Shown piece after piece: positions 31,293-41,606 of a stretch of DNA of 41,606 nucleotides (position 1 is its first letter; the number at the start of each line of letters is the position of its first letter). Under the pieces are notes generated by a model. The model saw only the letters and a list, made by a program, of their open reading frames with translations, searched no databases and was not told the origin of the DNA. Source of the stretch: a virus; IMG/VR virus record IMGVR_UViG_3300048833_000118, positions 1-41,606 of that record. One strand, 5' to 3'. A program made the translations under genes and the position numbers.

Positions 31293-31420
31293 CCCTCACG
31301 ACCCGTGGCCGGATCGCCCTGGCCCTCGGCATCCTCGCCCTCGTCATCCTGTTCACCGCCGGCACCCGTGACGTGTGCTGGAACGGCACCGCCTACGGCT
31401 CGTGCGAGGTCGGCCGGTGA
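31289..31420 (+). CDS. 43-residue membrane-anchored peptide
   Basis: GTG 31289. Basic N-terminus (MTLTTRGR), one strongly hydrophobic helix (IALALGILALVILFTAG), then a short extracytoplasmic-looking tail with two Cys (VCWNGTAYGSC) that could form a disulfide. It overlaps both neighbours by GTGA. It could be a superinfection-exclusion type peptide, but that is speculation from topology. Confidence 0.65.
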   Translation: MTLTTRGRIALALGILALVILFTAGTRDVCWNGTAYGSCEVGR

Positions 31421-32673
31421 CCCTCTCGACCTACACCGAGCCCATCGTCGACCTGTTCGCTGGCCCCGGAGGCTGGGACGAGGGCGCCACCATGATCGGC
31501 GCCACCAACACGTACGGCCTCGAGTTCGAGGCCAACGCGTGCCGCACCGCCGAAGCGGCCGGGCACGCCCGGTTCCTCGGCGACATCGCCGCGGTCGAGC
31601 CCACCGACTACCGCCCGTGCGTCGGGCTGATCGCCTCGCCGCCGTGCCAGGCGTGGAGCAAGGCAGGCAAGCAGCTCGGCCGGCTGGACAAGGACGCCGT
31701 GTTCCGCCTCGTCCAGGCGTACGCCGCCGGAGAGCCCGGCATCACGCACGAGTGGGCCGACCCCCGATCGCACCTCGTAGCGGAGCCGATGCGCTGGACC
31801 GTGGCGCTCGAGCCCGAGTGGATCGTGCTCGAGGAGGTGCCGTCGGTGCTCCCGCTGTGGGACCTGTACGCCGACCTGCTCGAGGAGCGCGGCTACTCGA
31901 CGTGGCACGGGGTGCTGAACGCTGCCGACTACGGCGTGCCACAGACCCGCAAGCGCGCCATCCTCATCGCCTCCCGCACCCGCAAGGTCGGGCGCCCGGC
32001 GCCCACGCACGGCAAGGATGCCGGGCTGTTCGCCCCCGTGCCGTGGCAGACGATGGCCGAGGCGCTCGGCTGGGATGGGGTCGTCGGCTTCCCCTGCCGG
32101 AGCGACGGAGCAGCCGAGGTCGTCATCGAGGGCACCGCCTACCGTGCCCGTGACCTGAATGCAACCGCGCACCCGGCGCAGGTCGTCACGGAGAAGGCGA
32201 GGTCGTGGCTCCGCATGGGCGCCAACGCCAACGCCACCGTGCGGTCGGTCGAGGAGCCCGCTCCGACCGTGTTCACCGGGCACCAGGCCGGCAACATCAC
32301 GTGGCACCACGACGACCCTCGTGCCACGCAGGAGGGCAGCGAGTGGACGCACGAGCGTCCCGCCACCACCGTCGTCGGCTCGTTCCGCCCCGACGTGATC
32401 GCCGCACCCGGGTGGCGCAAGCCCGGCGACGGACCCCGGCAGAACACCCCCGGCAGCGTCAAGGTCGAGGTGTGGGAGGCCGGCGTCCTGCAGTCCTTCC
32501 GCCCCGACTACCCCTGGCAGGGTGCCCGGACCCGCCAGTTCCAGCAGGTCGGCAACGCCGTACCGCCCCGCCTCGCAGCGCACGTCATCGCCGAGGCCAT
32601 CGGCATCGACCCCACCCCTGGCATCGCTGCCTACTACGCGAAGGCGAGGGCTGCGCTCGAGAGCACGGCCTGA
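31417..32673 (+). CDS. DNA (cytosine-5) methyltransferase
   Basis: A 418-residue C5-MTase that moves a methyl group from S-adenosylmethionine to cytosine. The motifs are complete: I VDLFAGPGGWDEG (about 11-23), IV with catalytic C77 in SPPCQAWSKAGK, VI LEEVPSV (a variant of the usual ENV), VIII YGVPQTRKRAILIASR and X QQVGNAVPPRLAAH. The region between VIII and X contains a target-recognition domain whose specificity cannot be read. No partner restriction endonuclease is adjacent, so it probably protects phage DNA. GTG 31417 overlaps the previous stop (GTGA). Confidence 0.93.
   Translation: MTLSTYTEPIVDLFAGPGGWDEGATMIGATNTYGLEFEANACRTAEAAGHARFLGDIAAVEPTDYRPCVGLIASPPCQAWSKAGKQLGRLDKDAVFRLVQAYAAGEPGITHEWADPRSHLVAEPMRWTVALEPEWIVLEEVPSVLPLWDLYADLLEERGYSTWHGVLNAADYGVPQTRKRAILIASRTRKVGRPAPTHGKDAGLFAPVPWQTMAEALGWDGVVGFPCRSDGAAEVVIEGTAYRARDLNATAHPAQVVTEKARSWLRMGANANATVRSVEEPAPTVFTGHQAGNITWHHDDPRATQEGSEWTHERPATTVVGSFRPDVIAAPGWRKPGDGPRQNTPGSVKVEVWEAGVLQSFRPDYPWQGARTRQFQQVGNAVPPRLAAHVIAEAIGIDPTPGIAAYYAKARAALESTA
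32153..32172 (+). promoter_or_regulatory. Dispersed 20-bp asymmetric motif, copy 7 (inside gene)
   Basis: ACCTGAATGCAACCGCGCAC lies within the methyltransferase coding sequence, in frame as DLNATAH. It shares further bases with the intergenic copy at 30061, so it is unlikely to be a chance codon run. No gene starts nearby. Confidence 0.5.
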
Positions 32674-35313: not shown

Positions 35314-35888
35314 TGCCCACCACCCGCCTCCTGTGGCTCGACCTCGAGACCACCGGCCTCAACCCGGCCGACGACGACATCCTCGAGATCGGCCTCGTCG
35401 TCACCGATGGACTGCGCGATGTGCTCGACGAGCGCAGCATCGTCATCAAGCCGTGGCTGTTCGAGCCCGCCGACCTCGAGCCCGACGTGTGCCGGATGCA
35501 CGAGCAGTCCGGGCTGCTCGACGCCATCGAGACGCACGGCGTGCCGCTCGACGCCGGCATCGCCCGGGCGCAGGCGTACCTCGACTGCTACTTCGGCATC
35601 GACTGGCGCCAGACCATCACGGTCGGCGGCTCCGGCATCGACCGGTTCGACATCCCGTTCCTCAACGTGCACGCACCCGACCTCGCCCGCCGGTTCTACT
35701 ACGGCACCCTCGACACGTCCGGCATCAAGCGGATCAGCCGGCTCGCCGGCCGGGAGCTCACCGGGGGAGCGAACGGTGCCGGCCACCGTGCCGTGGCCGA
35801 TGCGCTCGACTCGTTCCGCATGGCGCAGGCGTTCGCCAAGATGCTCGAGCCCGTCATCCTCACCGCCCCGTCGGGGGTGCTGGCGTGA
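35313..35888 (+). CDS. DnaQ/oligoribonuclease-like 3'-5' exonuclease
   Basis: 191 residues with DEDDh motifs: ExoI LWLDLETTGL (D10, E12), ExoII GSGIDRFDIPF and ExoIII GHRAVADALDSF with the catalytic His and final Asp. Family members act as polymerase proofreaders or degrade short RNA. The phage has no polymerase, so the protein may trim RNA or DNA ends or assist the host replisome. ATG 35313 overlaps both neighbours. Distinct from the leftward-operon exonuclease at 37991. Confidence 0.88.
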   Translation: MPTTRLLWLDLETTGLNPADDDILEIGLVVTDGLRDVLDERSIVIKPWLFEPADLEPDVCRMHEQSGLLDAIETHGVPLDAGIARAQAYLDCYFGIDWRQTITVGGSGIDRFDIPFLNVHAPDLARRFYYGTLDTSGIKRISRLAGRELTGGANGAGHRAVADALDSFRMAQAFAKMLEPVILTAPSGVLA

Positions 35889-36205
35889 GCCTCACCACCA
35901 TCCTCACCGAGGTCGTCGAGGAGATCGGCCGGGCGCGTGCCAAGCACGGCACGCAGACCGACATCCCCGACGGCAACCGCTTCGCCGGCCTCACCGCATG
36001 GGACGAGGCCGACGCCCGCCACGCTTGCCAGGAGGCGTTCGCCGAGGGGCGCGGCACCTGGGCGCACATCCTCGTCGAGGAGGTCGCCGAGGCGCTCGAG
36101 GAGGCCACCACCGGGCCGTCCTCCCGGCTGCGCGAGGAGCTCCTGCAGGTGGCGTGCGTCGCAGTCTCGTGGGTCGATGCCATCGACGAGAGGAGCACGA
36201 CGTGA
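35885..36205 (+). CDS. MazG-like nucleotide pyrophosphohydrolase
   Basis: 106 residues. The helical pattern with HILVEEVAEALEEATTG and LREELLQVACVAVSWVDAI contains the E-E-x-x-E and second acidic motif of all-alpha MazG-type NTP pyrophosphohydrolases, which bind magnesium. Such phage enzymes adjust nucleotide pools or lower ppGpp. GTG 35885. The exact substrate cannot be told; one motif carries Gln where Asp is common. Confidence 0.75.
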   Translation: MSLTTILTEVVEEIGRARAKHGTQTDIPDGNRFAGLTAWDEADARHACQEAFAEGRGTWAHILVEEVAEALEEATTGPSSRLREELLQVACVAVSWVDAIDERSTT

Positions 36206-37365: not shown

Positions 37366-37994
37366 CGGTCCTGCCCCCGAGTCGCAGCCTGCGCCGACGC
37401 GTTCGACATCACGTGCCGGCGACCCGACCACCCGACACCCTCGCCCGACAGGCGCTGCGCCAGACGCTCGAGGGTGCGCTTCACCCGCATCCGGGCAGCG
37501 TCCTCCGTACACCCCAGCTCCGCACCGATGTCCGACAGCGTGCGATCCACCCCGTACCGGGCACGCAGCAACGCCACGTCCGCCGGCTGCATCCCGTGCA
37601 GCGCCGACGACACGTCCGCCAGCGACGCGAGGAGCTCCGAGCCGGCAGTCGCCCACTCGTCATCGGTGAACACGAACGTGAGCAGCACCTCGAGCTCGGC
37701 CTCCTCGTACGCCGAGCCCTCCTCCTCGGTGCGCCCACCCGTGACGATCTCGTGCTCCTTGCGGGCGTACTTCCGGGCGTGCCGGCCGAGGGACACACGC
37801 AGCTTGTTCGCCCCGTGCGCGCCCTCCTCCCGCCACCGCTCGAGGTGCCGCCCGTTGCGGCACAGCCACAGGTACAGCTCCGCCACGATGTCGTCGGTGT
37901 CGACGTTCGGCCAGGCCCGCCCGATGTAGCGGCCCATCTTGTCCGCCGCCTGGATCTCCTCGGCGTTCGGCTCCACAGTCATCTGCTCGCTCAC
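37362..37994 (-). CDS. Sigma-factor-like DNA-binding protein
   Basis: 210 residues. A C-terminal HTH at about 152-183 (LSDIGAELGCTEDAARMRVK) strongly resembles sigma-70 region 4. The N-terminal NVDTDDIVAELYLWLCRNGR recalls region 2 of extracytoplasmic-function (ECF) type factors but is not fully conserved. It may direct RNA polymerase to late promoters, or act as a RinA-like late activator. It comes near the end of the long replication operon, a good point for delayed expression. GTG 37994 overlaps the exonuclease stop. Confidence 0.7.
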   Translation of the reverse strand: MSEQMTVEPNAEEIQAADKMGRYIGRAWPNVDTDDIVAELYLWLCRNGRHLERWREEGAHGANKLRVSLGRHARKYARKEHEIVTGGRTEEEGSAYEEAELEVLLTFVFTDDEWATAGSELLASLADVSSALHGMQPADVALLRARYGVDRTLSDIGAELGCTEDAARMRVKRTLERLAQRLSGEGVGWSGRRHVMSNASAQAATRGQDR

Positions 37995-38746
37995 GTGGAC
38001 GGCACCCCCACGACCTTGACGCCCGCCTCGCGGATCGTCGAACGGGACCAGGCGCCGCACTTCGCGGCCTTGCACTGGTACTGCTGGAACTTCCCCTGCC
38101 GCGTGTACGCGTAGCCACGCTTCTCGAGACGGCCACCGCAGCGGGTGCACGCCGGCCGGGCGTCGACCACGCCGGCACGCAGCCCCGGCACCGGGTGCGC
38201 CACCACGTACGGGCGGAGGATGCGGTAGAGCTGCGACGTGAGGCGCACGTCGCCGCAGTTGTACGTCCGCATCTTGTTCCACGCGCGCTCGTCACCCTCG
38301 AGGCACTTCACCCACAGCGAGTGACCCTCGTGCGACACCTTCCGCTTGCCGAGGAGCTGGCTCGCCACGTAGTCGAGCTTGTTGCTCTGGAACGCGAACT
38401 CCTTGCGGACCACGGGGAGCAGGTCGATCTGCGCCGGCGGCTTGAGTGGCGGGAACCCGGCGAGCAGGAGCTCGCGCCGGATGTGCCGCATATCGAACTT
38501 GATGCCGTTCCACGTGACCACGGCGTCCGCTTCCGACAGGCGCCCGTGCAGCGCCTCGAGCATCGCGTCGGTGCCGTCGTGGAACTCCGAGAAGAACTCG
38601 ACCGTGCTCTCGCCCTCCCACTTCCAGGCGAACGAGAGGATGCGCGACGGCTCGAGGAGCTGCGCGAGGGACACGTTCGCACCCCACAGGGTCCACACGT
38701 GCGCCGTCGCCGGACTCGTCTCGATGTCGATGACCGCGACCTTCAT
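37991..38746 (-). CDS. DEDD exonuclease (RNase H-fold) with C-terminal zinc ribbon
   Basis: 251 residues. ExoI VIDIETS (D7, E9), ExoII VVTWNGIKFDMRHI (D85) and ExoIII TYNCGDVRLTSQLY (D166) match the 3'-5' exonuclease domain of family B DNA polymerases. The polymerase domain is absent. A zinc ribbon (CTRCGG, then CKAAKCGAW) closes the protein at about 200-235. It could proofread or trim ends with the host polymerase. ATG 38746 overlaps the upstream stop (TGATG). Confidence 0.85.
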   Translation of the reverse strand: MKVAVIDIETSPATAHVWTLWGANVSLAQLLEPSRILSFAWKWEGESTVEFFSEFHDGTDAMLEALHGRLSEADAVVTWNGIKFDMRHIRRELLLAGFPPLKPPAQIDLLPVVRKEFAFQSNKLDYVASQLLGKRKVSHEGHSLWVKCLEGDERAWNKMRTYNCGDVRLTSQLYRILRPYVVAHPVPGLRAGVVDARPACTRCGGRLEKRGYAYTRQGKFQQYQCKAAKCGAWSRSTIREAGVKVVGVPST

Positions 38747-38889
38747 CAGCGGATCAGCCCCTTCGCCGTGGCACGGTTCACGTTCTTGCGGAGCCGGCGC
38801 ATCATGCGCGGCGTGAGCCACACCCGGCCGGAGCCGAGGAGCTGCTTCGACGCCATGACGGCGGGGTCCTTCTGCGTTGCCGTGCTCAC
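38746..38889 (-). CDS. 47-residue basic protein
   Basis: GTG 38889 overlaps the upstream stop (GTGA). The product is basic (VWLTPRMMRRLRKNVNRATA), mostly helical, and may bind nucleic acid. It tiles perfectly between two larger genes. No family recognised. Confidence 0.68.
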   Translation of the reverse strand: MSTATQKDPAVMASKQLLGSGRVWLTPRMMRRLRKNVNRATAKGLIR

Positions 38890-39947
38890 AGGCCAGCCCC
38901 CTTCGGGCGGTCGTCGAACTCCGGCCGGTTGGCGGAGAACCAGTGGAGGCAGCACGCGTGCCACGCCACAGCGATCAGGTGGTTCGAGCCCGTCTCGGCG
39001 TCGATGTCCTCACCGGCGATCCAGGCGAACAGGTGCCGCTGCAGGGCGCCGTACGACTTGGACCACTCGTAGCCGCGCTGCCAGTTGTTGTCGTCGTACT
39101 TGCGTGCGCCGACACCGAAGTGCTCGGCGAGCGCCCACAGGAACCCGGGCGGGATGAGGTCGAACCGTGCCGGCTTGACGCCCTTCTCCCCGCCGGTGGC
39201 GGACACGGTGCGGACCTCGCCCGACGCCGGCGACCCCCCGACCAGGCCACCGCCCGGCAGGATGATGCGGGAGGGGAACGCTGCGGCCTCGAGCACCTTC
39301 TGTTCGAGCACCTTCTCGGCCGGGGTCACGAGCTCGAACCGGCGCGGGTTCCAGTCTCCCGACCGGCTCCCGTCGAGCCCGAGGTGCACCGTGCCAGCGA
39401 CCTCCTCGAGCGCCGTCACCTCGAACTCACCAGCCGAGAGCATCGAGTGCTCCTGCCCGGCCCGGACGCGCACCCGGTCGCCGACCTGGAACGGGCGAGG
39501 CTCCTCCTCGAACGCGAGCACCTCCTCGTCGGGCACCACGTCGTCCCCGGCCTCGGGCTGCATGACGTACGTGAGCACGTGCTCGAGCCGCTCCCGGTCC
39601 CGCTCGAACACCGGCAGCGCCGGCTTGAGCGTGAACCCGCCCGCCTCCTCGGCGATGGCGAGCACCTCGAGCCCGAGCGCCACGGCGACCGACACCTCGA
39701 GCACGGCACCGGGCGACTCGCGCCACTCCGGGCCGACGATCACGGTGTCGACGTGGAGCAGCTCGGCCACGTCGTTCCGCATGTACGTGGAGAACGGCAG
39801 GTCGGTCGCGCCAGCGAACGCCTCGGCCGGGTTGACGACCCGCCAGTGGTGCTTGCGGAGCAGCGCGGCGATCCGGTCGAACCACGCGTAGTTGTAGTCG
39901 ACGTGCCCCGTCATCTTGTTCGACAGGTACGCCCTGCTCGGCTTCAT
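38886..39947 (-). CDS. Fusion: DUF4406-like + SH3-like + dATP/dGTP diphosphohydrolase-like
   Basis: A 353-residue three-domain protein. Residues about 1-100 (RAYLSNKMTGHVDYNYAWFD, then FSTYMRNDVAELLHVDTVIV) match the DUF4406/nucleoside deoxyribosyltransferase-like fold. A small beta domain lies at about 150-208 (FQVGDRVRVRAGQEHSM). Residues about 250-347 (GARKYDDNNWQRGYEWSKSY, then EDIDAETGSNHLIAVAWH) fit the all-alpha DUF5664 dATP/dGTP diphosphohydrolase group that includes MazZ. It probably edits nucleotide pools. No PurZ is present. ATG 39947 overlaps the TOPRIM stop. Confidence 0.82.
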   Translation of the reverse strand: MKPSRAYLSNKMTGHVDYNYAWFDRIAALLRKHHWRVVNPAEAFAGATDLPFSTYMRNDVAELLHVDTVIVGPEWRESPGAVLEVSVAVALGLEVLAIAEEAGGFTLKPALPVFERDRERLEHVLTYVMQPEAGDDVVPDEEVLAFEEEPRPFQVGDRVRVRAGQEHSMLSAGEFEVTALEEVAGTVHLGLDGSRSGDWNPRRFELVTPAEKVLEQKVLEAAAFPSRIILPGGGLVGGSPASGEVRTVSATGGEKGVKPARFDLIPPGFLWALAEHFGVGARKYDDNNWQRGYEWSKSYGALQRHLFAWIAGEDIDAETGSNHLIAVAWHACCLHWFSANRPEFDDRPKGAGL

Positions 39948-40624
39948 GTGAGTCCCGCTCTCGCTCGCAGTCCCTCGGCTCCTTCGAGGAGGAACGTGTC
40001 GGTGGCGTCCATGCCCTGCTCGAGCCGGACGATCTGCACGGTCGTGGTGTCGTTCAGGTCCTTGGCGATCTGCTTCCCGAGGTCCCTGCCGGCGTCGTCG
40101 CCGTCGGCGAACACGAGGACGCGGGAGAACGGGCGGAACATGCGGGGGTAGTGCTTCTGCCCGTTCCACACCTGAGCGCCGGGGATGCCCACGGCGGGCA
40201 CCTGGACGTGGTGGTGGACGATGAGCGCGTCGAGCTCGCCCTCGCACACCGCGACCGTCGCCACGTCGGACATCAGCGCCTGCGCGTTGAACATCCGAGG
40301 CGACTTGCCCGGGAGGTTGAGGTACTTGCTGTGCCCGGCGTCCTTGCACGACCGCTCGGCGCCGAGGTCGTCGGTGCCGTGGTTCGTGATGCAGCGGAAC
40401 CGGATGTCGACCGGGCCGGCGGGGGTGAGGAACGGGATGGCGAGCCGACCGAGGTAGTCCTCGTGCCCGGGCATCGGGTCACGGACGACACCGAGCCGGG
40501 CGTGGCCGGCGATCGGCCCGTCGATGCCACGGTTCTCGAGGTACTCGCGCGCCTCGAGCACGTGCCCCTGGTAGGTGCGGACGGCCCGCTCGAGGTCGTC
40601 GCGCTGCGTCTGGCTCAGCGCCAC
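39944..40624 (-). CDS. TOPRIM primase (catalytic half)
   Basis: 226 residues. TOPRIM motifs VAVCEGELDAL (E128, E130) and VLVFADGDDAGR (D174, D176) bind magnesium. The upstream region ARLGVVRDP and the NRGIDGPIAGHA start fit DnaG-type phage primase cores. The zinc domain is encoded separately (40755-41105), with a 47-residue Cys-rich gene between the two. It makes RNA primers, probably with the helicase encoded at 304-1089. GTG 40624 overlaps the preceding gene by 10 bp. Confidence 0.88.
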   Translation of the reverse strand: MALSQTQRDDLERAVRTYQGHVLEAREYLENRGIDGPIAGHARLGVVRDPMPGHEDYLGRLAIPFLTPAGPVDIRFRCITNHGTDDLGAERSCKDAGHSKYLNLPGKSPRMFNAQALMSDVATVAVCEGELDALIVHHHVQVPAVGIPGAQVWNGQKHYPRMFRPFSRVLVFADGDDAGRDLGKQIAKDLNDTTTVQIVRLEQGMDATDTFLLEGAEGLRARAGLT

Positions 40625-40758
40625 GGGTACACCGCCTTGCGCGTGTGCCCACACTCGATGTCGGGGCACGTCTCCCACGGGCACGTGCGCGAGTCACAGT
40701 GGGAACGGAACGTCACCGTGACGCCGCACCCGGGGCACAGCTCCTGGTCGAGAGTCAC
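40615..40758 (-). CDS. 47-residue cysteine-rich zinc protein
   Basis: GTG 40758 overlaps the zinc-half primase stop (GTGA). The sequence has CPGCG, then CDSRTCPWETCPDIECGH, seven Cys and two His in 47 residues, enough for two zinc sites. Lying between the two halves of a split primase, it may join or modulate them. That role is inferred from position only. Confidence 0.72.
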   Translation of the reverse strand: MTLDQELCPGCGVTVTFRSHCDSRTCPWETCPDIECGHTRKAVYPWR

Positions 40759-41105
40759 CTGCGTCCCCTCCTGCCCGGCGGCTTGTAGCCGCGCTTCGCC
40801 CCGGCCGACCGGCCGCTGCTGATGTGCGATGTTGCGTTCGGGTCAGCCTCGAGCCGATCCCCGATGAGCAGGGCCTCGACGAACGAGACGCCCTCCCGGT
40901 GCTGGATCAGGGAGTAGACATCGCCCTTGACCCCGCAGGCGTGGCACTTGAACACGCCCTCGTTGGTGTTGACCGCGGCCGACGCCGTGGAGTCGTCGTG
41001 GTACGGGCACTTCGTCGCCCGCCACCCGGTGCGATCGTGGATGGGCGGGGACCCGTGGGCCTCGAGCACCGCAGCGATCGACGGGCGGGTGTGCTGCTCA
41101 CGCAC
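40755..41105 (-). CDS. CHC2 zinc-finger primase half
   Basis: About 116 residues. The core CPYHDDSTASAAVNTNEGVF, followed by KCHACG, is a CHC2 zinc-binding domain of DnaG primases, which recognises template DNA. The helix after it (DVYSLIQHREGVSFVEALLI) is also typical. A basic C-terminus (GAKRGYKPPGRRGRR) may bind DNA. GTG 41105 is used; GTG 41114 is possible. Its 3' part holds a copy of the dispersed motif (40824-40843). Confidence 0.85.
   Translation of the reverse strand: MREQHTRPSIAAVLEAHGSPPIHDRTGWRATKCPYHDDSTASAAVNTNEGVFKCHACGVKGDVYSLIQHREGVSFVEALLIGDRLEADPNATSHISSGRSAGAKRGYKPPGRRGRR
40824..40843 (-). promoter_or_regulatory. Dispersed 20-bp asymmetric motif, copy 9 (inside gene)
   Basis: Reads ACCCGAACGCAACATCGCAC on the minus strand, inside the zinc-primase gene, where it encodes DPNATSH. 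It ends 66 bp before the start of the next gene and points with transcription. Confidence 0.55.
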
Positions 41106-41448: not shown

Positions 41449-41606
41449 GACTCGCGGATCTCCTCGAGCTGCGCCGTGAGGCGCGCGGCCACGATCTCGA
41501 GGGCCTCGAGCCGGCCCTGCAGCCGGCGCTTCTCCCAGCGGGTGACGGCGTTGGCGTGCTCGACGGTGGTGTCCTGGTGCTCGGCCTCGACGTTGGTGAG
41601 CGCGTG
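41445..41606 (-). CDS. Right-end part of the gene crossing the join
   Basis: This is the 3' part of the gene that starts at 307. Bases 41480-41606 repeat 1-127; new sequence is 41445-41479, coding LTAQLEEIRES and then TGA. The frame matches exactly at the join. It is partial here only because the circle was cut. Confidence 0.8.
   Translation of the reverse strand, partial: HALTNVEAEHQDTTVEHANAVTRWEKRRLQGRLEALEIVAARLTAQLEEIRES
41480..41606. repeat. 127-bp terminal duplication (right copy)
   Basis: Identical to 1-127; see the left copy. One copy should be removed when the molecule is treated as a circle. Confidence 0.95.

Follow-up and report, generated by a model that had tools for sequence, protein, structure and literature searches.

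The locus raises the question of what a protein that joins a deoxyribosyltransferase-like domain to a dNTP pyrophosphohydrolase-type domain does in a phage without the known pathway to 2-aminoadenine (Z) DNA. The window, i.e., the whole stretch of viral DNA analysed here (41,606 nucleotides, IMG/VR record IMGVR_UViG_3300048833_000118), contains at 38,886–39,947 on the minus strand an open reading frame with an ATG start that encodes 353 amino acids (P0001) and is a real gene, with both end domains matching their Pfam families far above chance. The N-terminal domain is DUF4406 (PF14359; residues 5–96, 39,660–39,935, minus strand; E-value 5e-15, 56.1 bits versus a cut-off of 22), the C-terminal domain is DUF5664 (PF18909, dGTP_diPhyd_N; residues 250–347, 38,907–39,200, minus strand; E-value 4e-33, 113.7 bits versus a cut-off of 27), and the protein terminates six residues past the latter. 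The fusion claimed in the preliminary description, a deoxyribosyltransferase-like and a dATP/dGTP pyrophosphohydrolase-type domain in one protein, was supported by Pfam, by the predicted fold, and by identity to gp51 of Arthrobacter phage Wayne, and the claimed nucleotide-pool function is supported as a predicted role.

Between the two domains, residues of about 100–240 yielded no Pfam match, and the SH3-like identity described for this region is plausible as a putative barrel of residues about 151–207 (39,327–39,497, minus strand). Strands at residues 158–191 were present in two predicted models at modest confidence (pLDDT about 55–79), Foldseek returned weak matches to chromodomain and ribosomal KOW-type proteins, and a module similar to the middle region, F(Q/K)VGDRVR(V/I), was located at the N-terminus of a related fusion (L036); the best relative among 50,697 phage records did not fall below an E-value of 0.08. 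For the protein as a whole, no near relative was found in phages or IMG/VR, none of the named phage records had a place covering at least 80% of the query, and PDB sequence searches with P0001 or a DUF5664-rich profile gave chance matches only.

The first and last 127 bases of the window are identical (exact terminal direct repeat, 1–127 as the left copy on the plus strand and 41,480–41,606), which marks a circular assembly, and hence the phage genome is probably complete. It encodes an integrase, a repressor, a DnaB-like helicase, an exonuclease, a portal, and a major head protein, and the nearest relatives of its terminase belong to Streptomyces phages (44% identity); because of the integrase and repressor, and of the terminase, the phage is temperate and its host probably an actinobacterium. 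The fusion gene overlaps both neighbours by 4 bp and was therefore placed in a replication operon: ATGA is shared with the upstream gene for the Toprim half of a split DNA primase (39,944–40,684, minus strand), and GTGA, at the stop of the fusion, with a small downstream gene (38,746–38,889, minus strand). The leftward replication block around it comprises the DnaG-type CHC2 zinc-ribbon half of the primase (40,755–41,096, minus strand), a RusA-like protein, a PolB-like 3'–5' exonuclease subunit (37,991–38,821, minus strand), and a sigma-like protein.

The DUF5664 half is a predicted dATP/dGTP(/dUTP) pyrophosphohydrolase. Among phage proteins, those of Arthrobacter Korravirus are closest to it (62–64% identity); their genes are flanked by purZ on one side and by a gene for an NDT-dUTPase fusion on the other, and one of these proteins, Wayne gp51 (ALY10775.1; 61% identity over 105 aa), is the closest assayed relative. 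This protein has been measured as a pyrophosphohydrolase converting dATP, dUTP, and dGTP to the monophosphates, with a kcat about ten times faster for dATP than for dGTP (PMC12884076); unlike the window protein, it is a stand-alone DUF5664 with a short N-terminal extension, encoded beside purZ. All DUF5664 columns with at least 85% conservation are present in the window protein except for W310I. When 72 DUF5664 domains were placed on a tree, those from the four PurZ0 phage sequences formed a fully supported clade with the window outside of it. The full-length model returned no PDB match for the DUF5664 fold with Foldseek; its helices and a Glu313-x-x-Asp316 motif call to mind a putative likeness to the all-alpha NTP pyrophosphatases.

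The term MazZ-type, by which this domain had been described, holds in a loose sense. The window protein matches the DUF5664 half of MazZ from Acinetobacter phage SH-Ab 15497 (about 32% identity), which is the N-terminal half of a DUF5664-DUF550 protein (PMC12884076), but the DUF550/MazG half that bears the MazZ name is missing, with no Pfam match to a DUF550/MazG-HisE type domain in the window protein, and a strict MazZ label was hence ruled out. DUF5664 appears able to work alone, because 43 of 72 representatives of the family (see below) had no DUF4406 within 2 kb. Several side observations concern this family: tandem DUF5664 copies occur in mycobacterial phages (L075:9689-10330, L081:9686-10327, L083:7231-8358), where the first copy seems degenerate, as it no longer has the conserved GxxKY..NW region; PHROG 2252 matches DUF5664 yet is labelled "endolysin; inhibits RNA polymerase"; on a Nocardia contig (L125:4878-5561), a dUTPase-like open reading frame overlaps the start of the DUF5664 frame, representing another pyrophosphohydrolase pairing; and a DUF5664-type protein is listed outside phages in a woodlouse iridescent virus (UniProt A0A068QKJ3).

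For the DUF4406 half, residues 1–235 were modelled from 24 sequences, and residues 1–110 mostly reached a pLDDT of 84–96. The best PDB matches of this model in Foldseek were the nucleotide N-glycosidase MilB, NDTs, DNPH1, and BcmB, with a probability of about 1.00, a TM-score to the target of about 0.5, and a best E-value of 1.9e-3, none reaching 0.001. Across 44 sequences, Tyr7 was found in 42 of 43 letters and Pro40, Asp59, Ser78, Gly80, and Glu84 in 44 of 44 each. Tyr7, Asp59, and Glu84 match the DNPH1 triad (Y24, D80, E104) by motif and spacing, without superposition. In DNPH1 the phosphate serine is S98, kept as S97 in MilB (PMC10603095), and DUF4406 has a serine at the same distance of six residues before the glutamate (Ser78/Glu84, as S98/E104 in DNPH1 and S97/E103 in MilB). 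Both known enzymes differ from the window protein in being unfused to a pyrophosphohydrolase, and DUF4406 differs from them in a transferase-like proline, with Pro40 aligning with the proline of a solved N-deoxyribosyltransferase; DmtZ of Z-phages has the triad Tyr6, Asn77, and Glu103 and carries the proline typical of transferases. Searching PDB sequences gave marginal NDT matches for the DUF4406 profile and nothing useful for the DmtZ profile, and the comparison of the two profiles was weak (E-value 0.038, probability 1.4%). The window protein stayed below the cut-off for PF05014 (17.6 versus 28.8 bits), which speaks against membership in PF05014 but not in the wider superfamily, because DUF4406 is a separate Pfam family. 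Based on the fold matches, the kept triad, the phosphate serine, and Pro40, DUF4406 is likely an NDT-superfamily enzyme of the 5'-monophosphate type, i.e., a predicted dNMP glycosidase or deoxyribose-5-phosphate transferase; the literature searched gave no activity assay of a DUF4406 protein.

The window protein departs from a near-invariant YxxGPM motif by reading YLSNKM, with Asn10-Lys11 in place of Gly-Pro and both Tyr and Met kept; the motif is a feature observed in this analysis and no published criterion, and DUF4406 membership rests on the Pfam score. Among the 44 sequences, Lys11 recurs in one other fusion (L126), and the replacement could alter or weaken the predicted activity. Phage genes for DUF4406 (among them LittleE gp170, BaboJay gp111, and TBrady12 gp115) carry conflicting annotations, namely MazG-like pyrophosphatase, deoxycytidylate deaminase, glycosyltransferase, hydrolase, and nucleoside deoxyribosyltransferase.

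The absence of PurZ and DatZ claimed in the preliminary description was reproduced, as queries for both were negative in the window while positive controls were found. PF00709 and three PurZ queries detected no PurZ in the window, and PF00476 together with DpoZ queries detected neither a family A DNA polymerase nor a DpoZ-type DNA polymerase I, with working controls; no purZ-datZ cluster surrounds the fusion gene. Since the genome is probably complete, these absences are meaningful. Furthermore, PurZ was detected in none of 20 records with DUF4406-DUF5664 or related arrangements (0/20) but in the control DrRobert. The window hence does not encode the known Z pathway, and a reading of the fusion as part of that pathway was rejected. 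The suggestion of modified DNA, which had been drawn from two other genes on the plus strand, neither of them shown to belong with the fusion, found no support. A C5-cytosine DNA methyltransferase is indeed encoded at 31,417–32,670 (PF00145, E-value 7e-33), and needs only ordinary 5-methylcytosine as its product; the MazG-like protein at 35,885–36,205 is borderline, with an E-value of 0.057 to PF03819 below the cut-off and a match to a PHROG of unknown function at 5e-17. By eye, the E-x-x-D metal motif typical of MazG proteins has Gln in place of Asp in the latter (REELLQVA), which makes its MazG-like activity doubtful. A base-making or base-specific polymerase gene was not found in the window, and its gene content indicates no modified base beyond plain C5-methylation.

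The same domain order was sought in other phages and found as fusions in six further loci from IMG/VR and GTDB contigs, so that a unique architecture of the window protein was ruled out. These are L036, with its SH3-like module at the N-terminus, L073, and loci from Arthrobacter (L121), Pseudarthrobacter (L122), Arthrobacter liuii (L123), and Subtercola (L126, about 220 aa and almost linker-free); in addition, a Mycolicibacterium prophage (L083/L127) carries a fusion in reversed order with two DUF5664 copies. Primase genes of the window type (DnaG zinc ribbon and Toprim) are located nearby in L036 and L083/L127 as well. In many mycobacteriophages, DUF4406 and DUF5664 are encoded by neighbouring genes. 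Aminay gp56-57 (adjacent, 4-bp overlap) and gp170 and gp173 of the Omegavirus LittleE have the two domains of the window in the same order and on the same strand, yet as separate genes, in LittleE with a PRA-PH/MazG-like gene in between.

A census of DUF5664 comprised 72 representatives under 90% identity, 7 of which were fused, 17 had a same-strand DUF4406 within 2 kb, 5 were near PurZ, without DUF4406 in any of them, and 43 had neither; the share of adjacent genes is inflated because some loci (L091, L102, L104, and L108-L110) had entered the census via DUF4406 itself, and among rows found via DUF5664 about 17 of 64 were fused or adjacent. A DUF4406 gene that was nearby yet non-adjacent occurred in L018 only. 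A mixed alignment of 52 rows was left out, as MAFFT had placed DUF4406 rows on DUF5664. Mapping the fusion state on the DUF5664 tree required six changes, at least five of which were forced by well-supported branches; on this tree, the DUF4406-DUF5664 fusion is placed as having arisen independently at least five times, and therefore both domains most likely act in sequence. Many phages and prophages of actinobacteria that lack PurZ have the pair, either fused or adjacent.

DUF4406 has other fusion partners, too. It is fused to a PRA-PH/MazG-like domain in L107 and, by similarity, in L078, L108, L109, and L111, and to a deoxynucleotide monophosphate (dNMP) kinase (PF21448) in L094, L095, L103, and L105 and, by similarity, in L096, L098, and L106. 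Among 27 loci fetched via DUF4406, 15 had DUF5664 within 2 kb and 7 were kinase-type fusions (near copies included). ThyX (L094, L095, L103), dUTPase (L095), and Mom (L105) are encoded in the neighbourhood of the kinase fusions. By their family assignments, the partners of DUF4406 are all predicted to make (DUF5664, MazG-like) or use (dNMP kinase) dNMPs. As individual observations, the kinase fusions at L094:4343-5305, L095:9995-10888, and L103:9989-10885 lie shortly downstream of ThyX in a thymidylate-synthesis setting, and in L105 (L105:9097-10020 and L105:6657-7286) a Mom-family gene for DNA modification is followed, about 1.8 kb downstream, by the kinase fusion, which makes L105 a candidate locus for base exchange or for the chemistry of modified DNA. 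Within the Omegavirus-like group (L102, L108, L109, L111), DUF4406 and the MazG-like domain are either separate or fused, beside DUF5664.

The best reading of the window fusion by analogy is that of a counterpart of the DmtZ-DutZ fusion of Wayne, without PurZ and without Z-DNA. The Wayne protein turns dATP mainly into adenine (PMC12884076) and is thus a direct precedent. Both proteins would combine an N-terminal NDT-superfamily dNMP enzyme with a C-terminal dNTP pyrophosphohydrolase in one chain, with the same predicted net chemistry (dATP to adenine). They differ in that the pyrophosphohydrolase is of the dUTPase type in Wayne versus DUF5664 in the window, DmtZ is barely alignable with DUF4406, and Wayne has PurZ and Z-DNA genes, whereas the window has none.

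With slightly better than even confidence, we regard the fusion as a bifunctional deoxynucleotide-catabolising enzyme acting from dNTP via dNMP to base and deoxyribose-5-phosphate; the two activities, the substrate, their coupling, and the purpose of the fusion are what we infer. DUF5664 would cleave a purine dNTP, most likely dATP, followed by dUTP and dGTP, into dNMP and pyrophosphate, and the dNMP would be handed to DUF4406 within the same chain. There, Glu84, with the help of Tyr7 and Asp59, would bind deoxyribose-5-phosphate covalently as an intermediate, while Ser78 and Gly80 would hold the phosphate and the free base would be released. The net conversion of dNTP to base, deoxyribose-5-phosphate, and pyrophosphate may, while the genome replicates, irreversibly drain one dNTP or sanitise the pool of it, from which the phage might gain a lower dATP level, removal of dUTP, or recycling of base and sugar phosphate.

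The invariant Pro40, aligned with the proline of a solved N-deoxyribosyltransferase, fits exchange as well as hydrolysis, and DUF4406 could instead be mainly an exchange enzyme that takes the deoxyribose-5-phosphate of the dNMP produced by DUF5664 and attaches it to another base, so that a dNMP of a different kind, salvaged or unusual, becomes available for phage DNA. That DmtZ, in the same combination, transfers to the Z base and that dNMP kinase fusions, one of them near Mom (L105), would carry a new dNMP onward speak for such an exchange; it is the leading alternative, yet rather unlikely for the window protein, as no gene for making a base or for a base-specific polymerase was found in the window, a pyrophosphohydrolase as fusion partner fits degradation, and mutation of the proline in DmtZ abolished neither activity. 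It is improbable, in our estimation, that DUF4406 proteins in general are widespread, as yet undescribed phage deoxyribose-5-phosphate transferases that swap the bases of dNMPs, which fused pyrophosphohydrolases would supply or fused dNMP kinases would take over, and that provide a PurZ-less route to unusual DNA nucleotides. The Asn-Lys in place of the near-invariant Gly-Pro after the catalytic Tyr, along with the many phages that have DUF5664 without DUF4406, would be compatible with activity of DUF5664 alone, as a plain dNTP-pool or dUTP sanitiser, with DUF4406 diverged into an inactive or regulatory nucleotide-binding domain. This is unlikely, given that the catalytic residues and the phosphate serine are all kept and that Lys11 is also present in the fusion of L126.

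Phages often interfere with nucleotide-based immunity, and weak Foldseek matches place the NDT fold near the nucleotide-binding folds of TIR, SAVED, and Cam1-like proteins, so the fusion could also act in counter-defence or signalling by destroying a nucleotide that host immunity makes or depletes. PADLOC gave no match, the gene lies in a replication operon beside the primase, and the partners of DUF4406 are dNTP and dNMP enzymes, all of which makes a role of this kind very unlikely. Least of all is the fusion expected to be a remnant of the Z-DNA pathway, or a piece of such a pathway that escaped detection: the closest assayed DUF5664 does belong to Arthrobacter Z-phages, but the PurZ0-phage domains form a clade of their own that excludes the window, PurZ, DatZ, and DpoZ are missing from a probably complete genome, and PurZ is missing from the related DUF4406 records.

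Both kinds of enzyme are already known, and a 2026 publication describes the activity of DUF5664; the literature searched, which is itself incomplete, appears to contain no description of the pairing of DUF4406 with DUF5664, of the recurrent fusion of the two, or of the pattern of dNMP-related partners, and DUF4406 is not named in the Z-phage paper (PMC12884076). For DUF4406, a domain common in phages, the fusions to makers and users of dNMPs together with a monophosphate-type active site provide a specific, testable function. If the fusion is the predicted dNTP-catabolising enzyme, the two-step chemistry from dATP to adenine would not be special to Z-DNA but may belong to a wider draining or reshaping of the dNTP pool by phages, a chemistry that different phages may have reached through different combinations of proteins.
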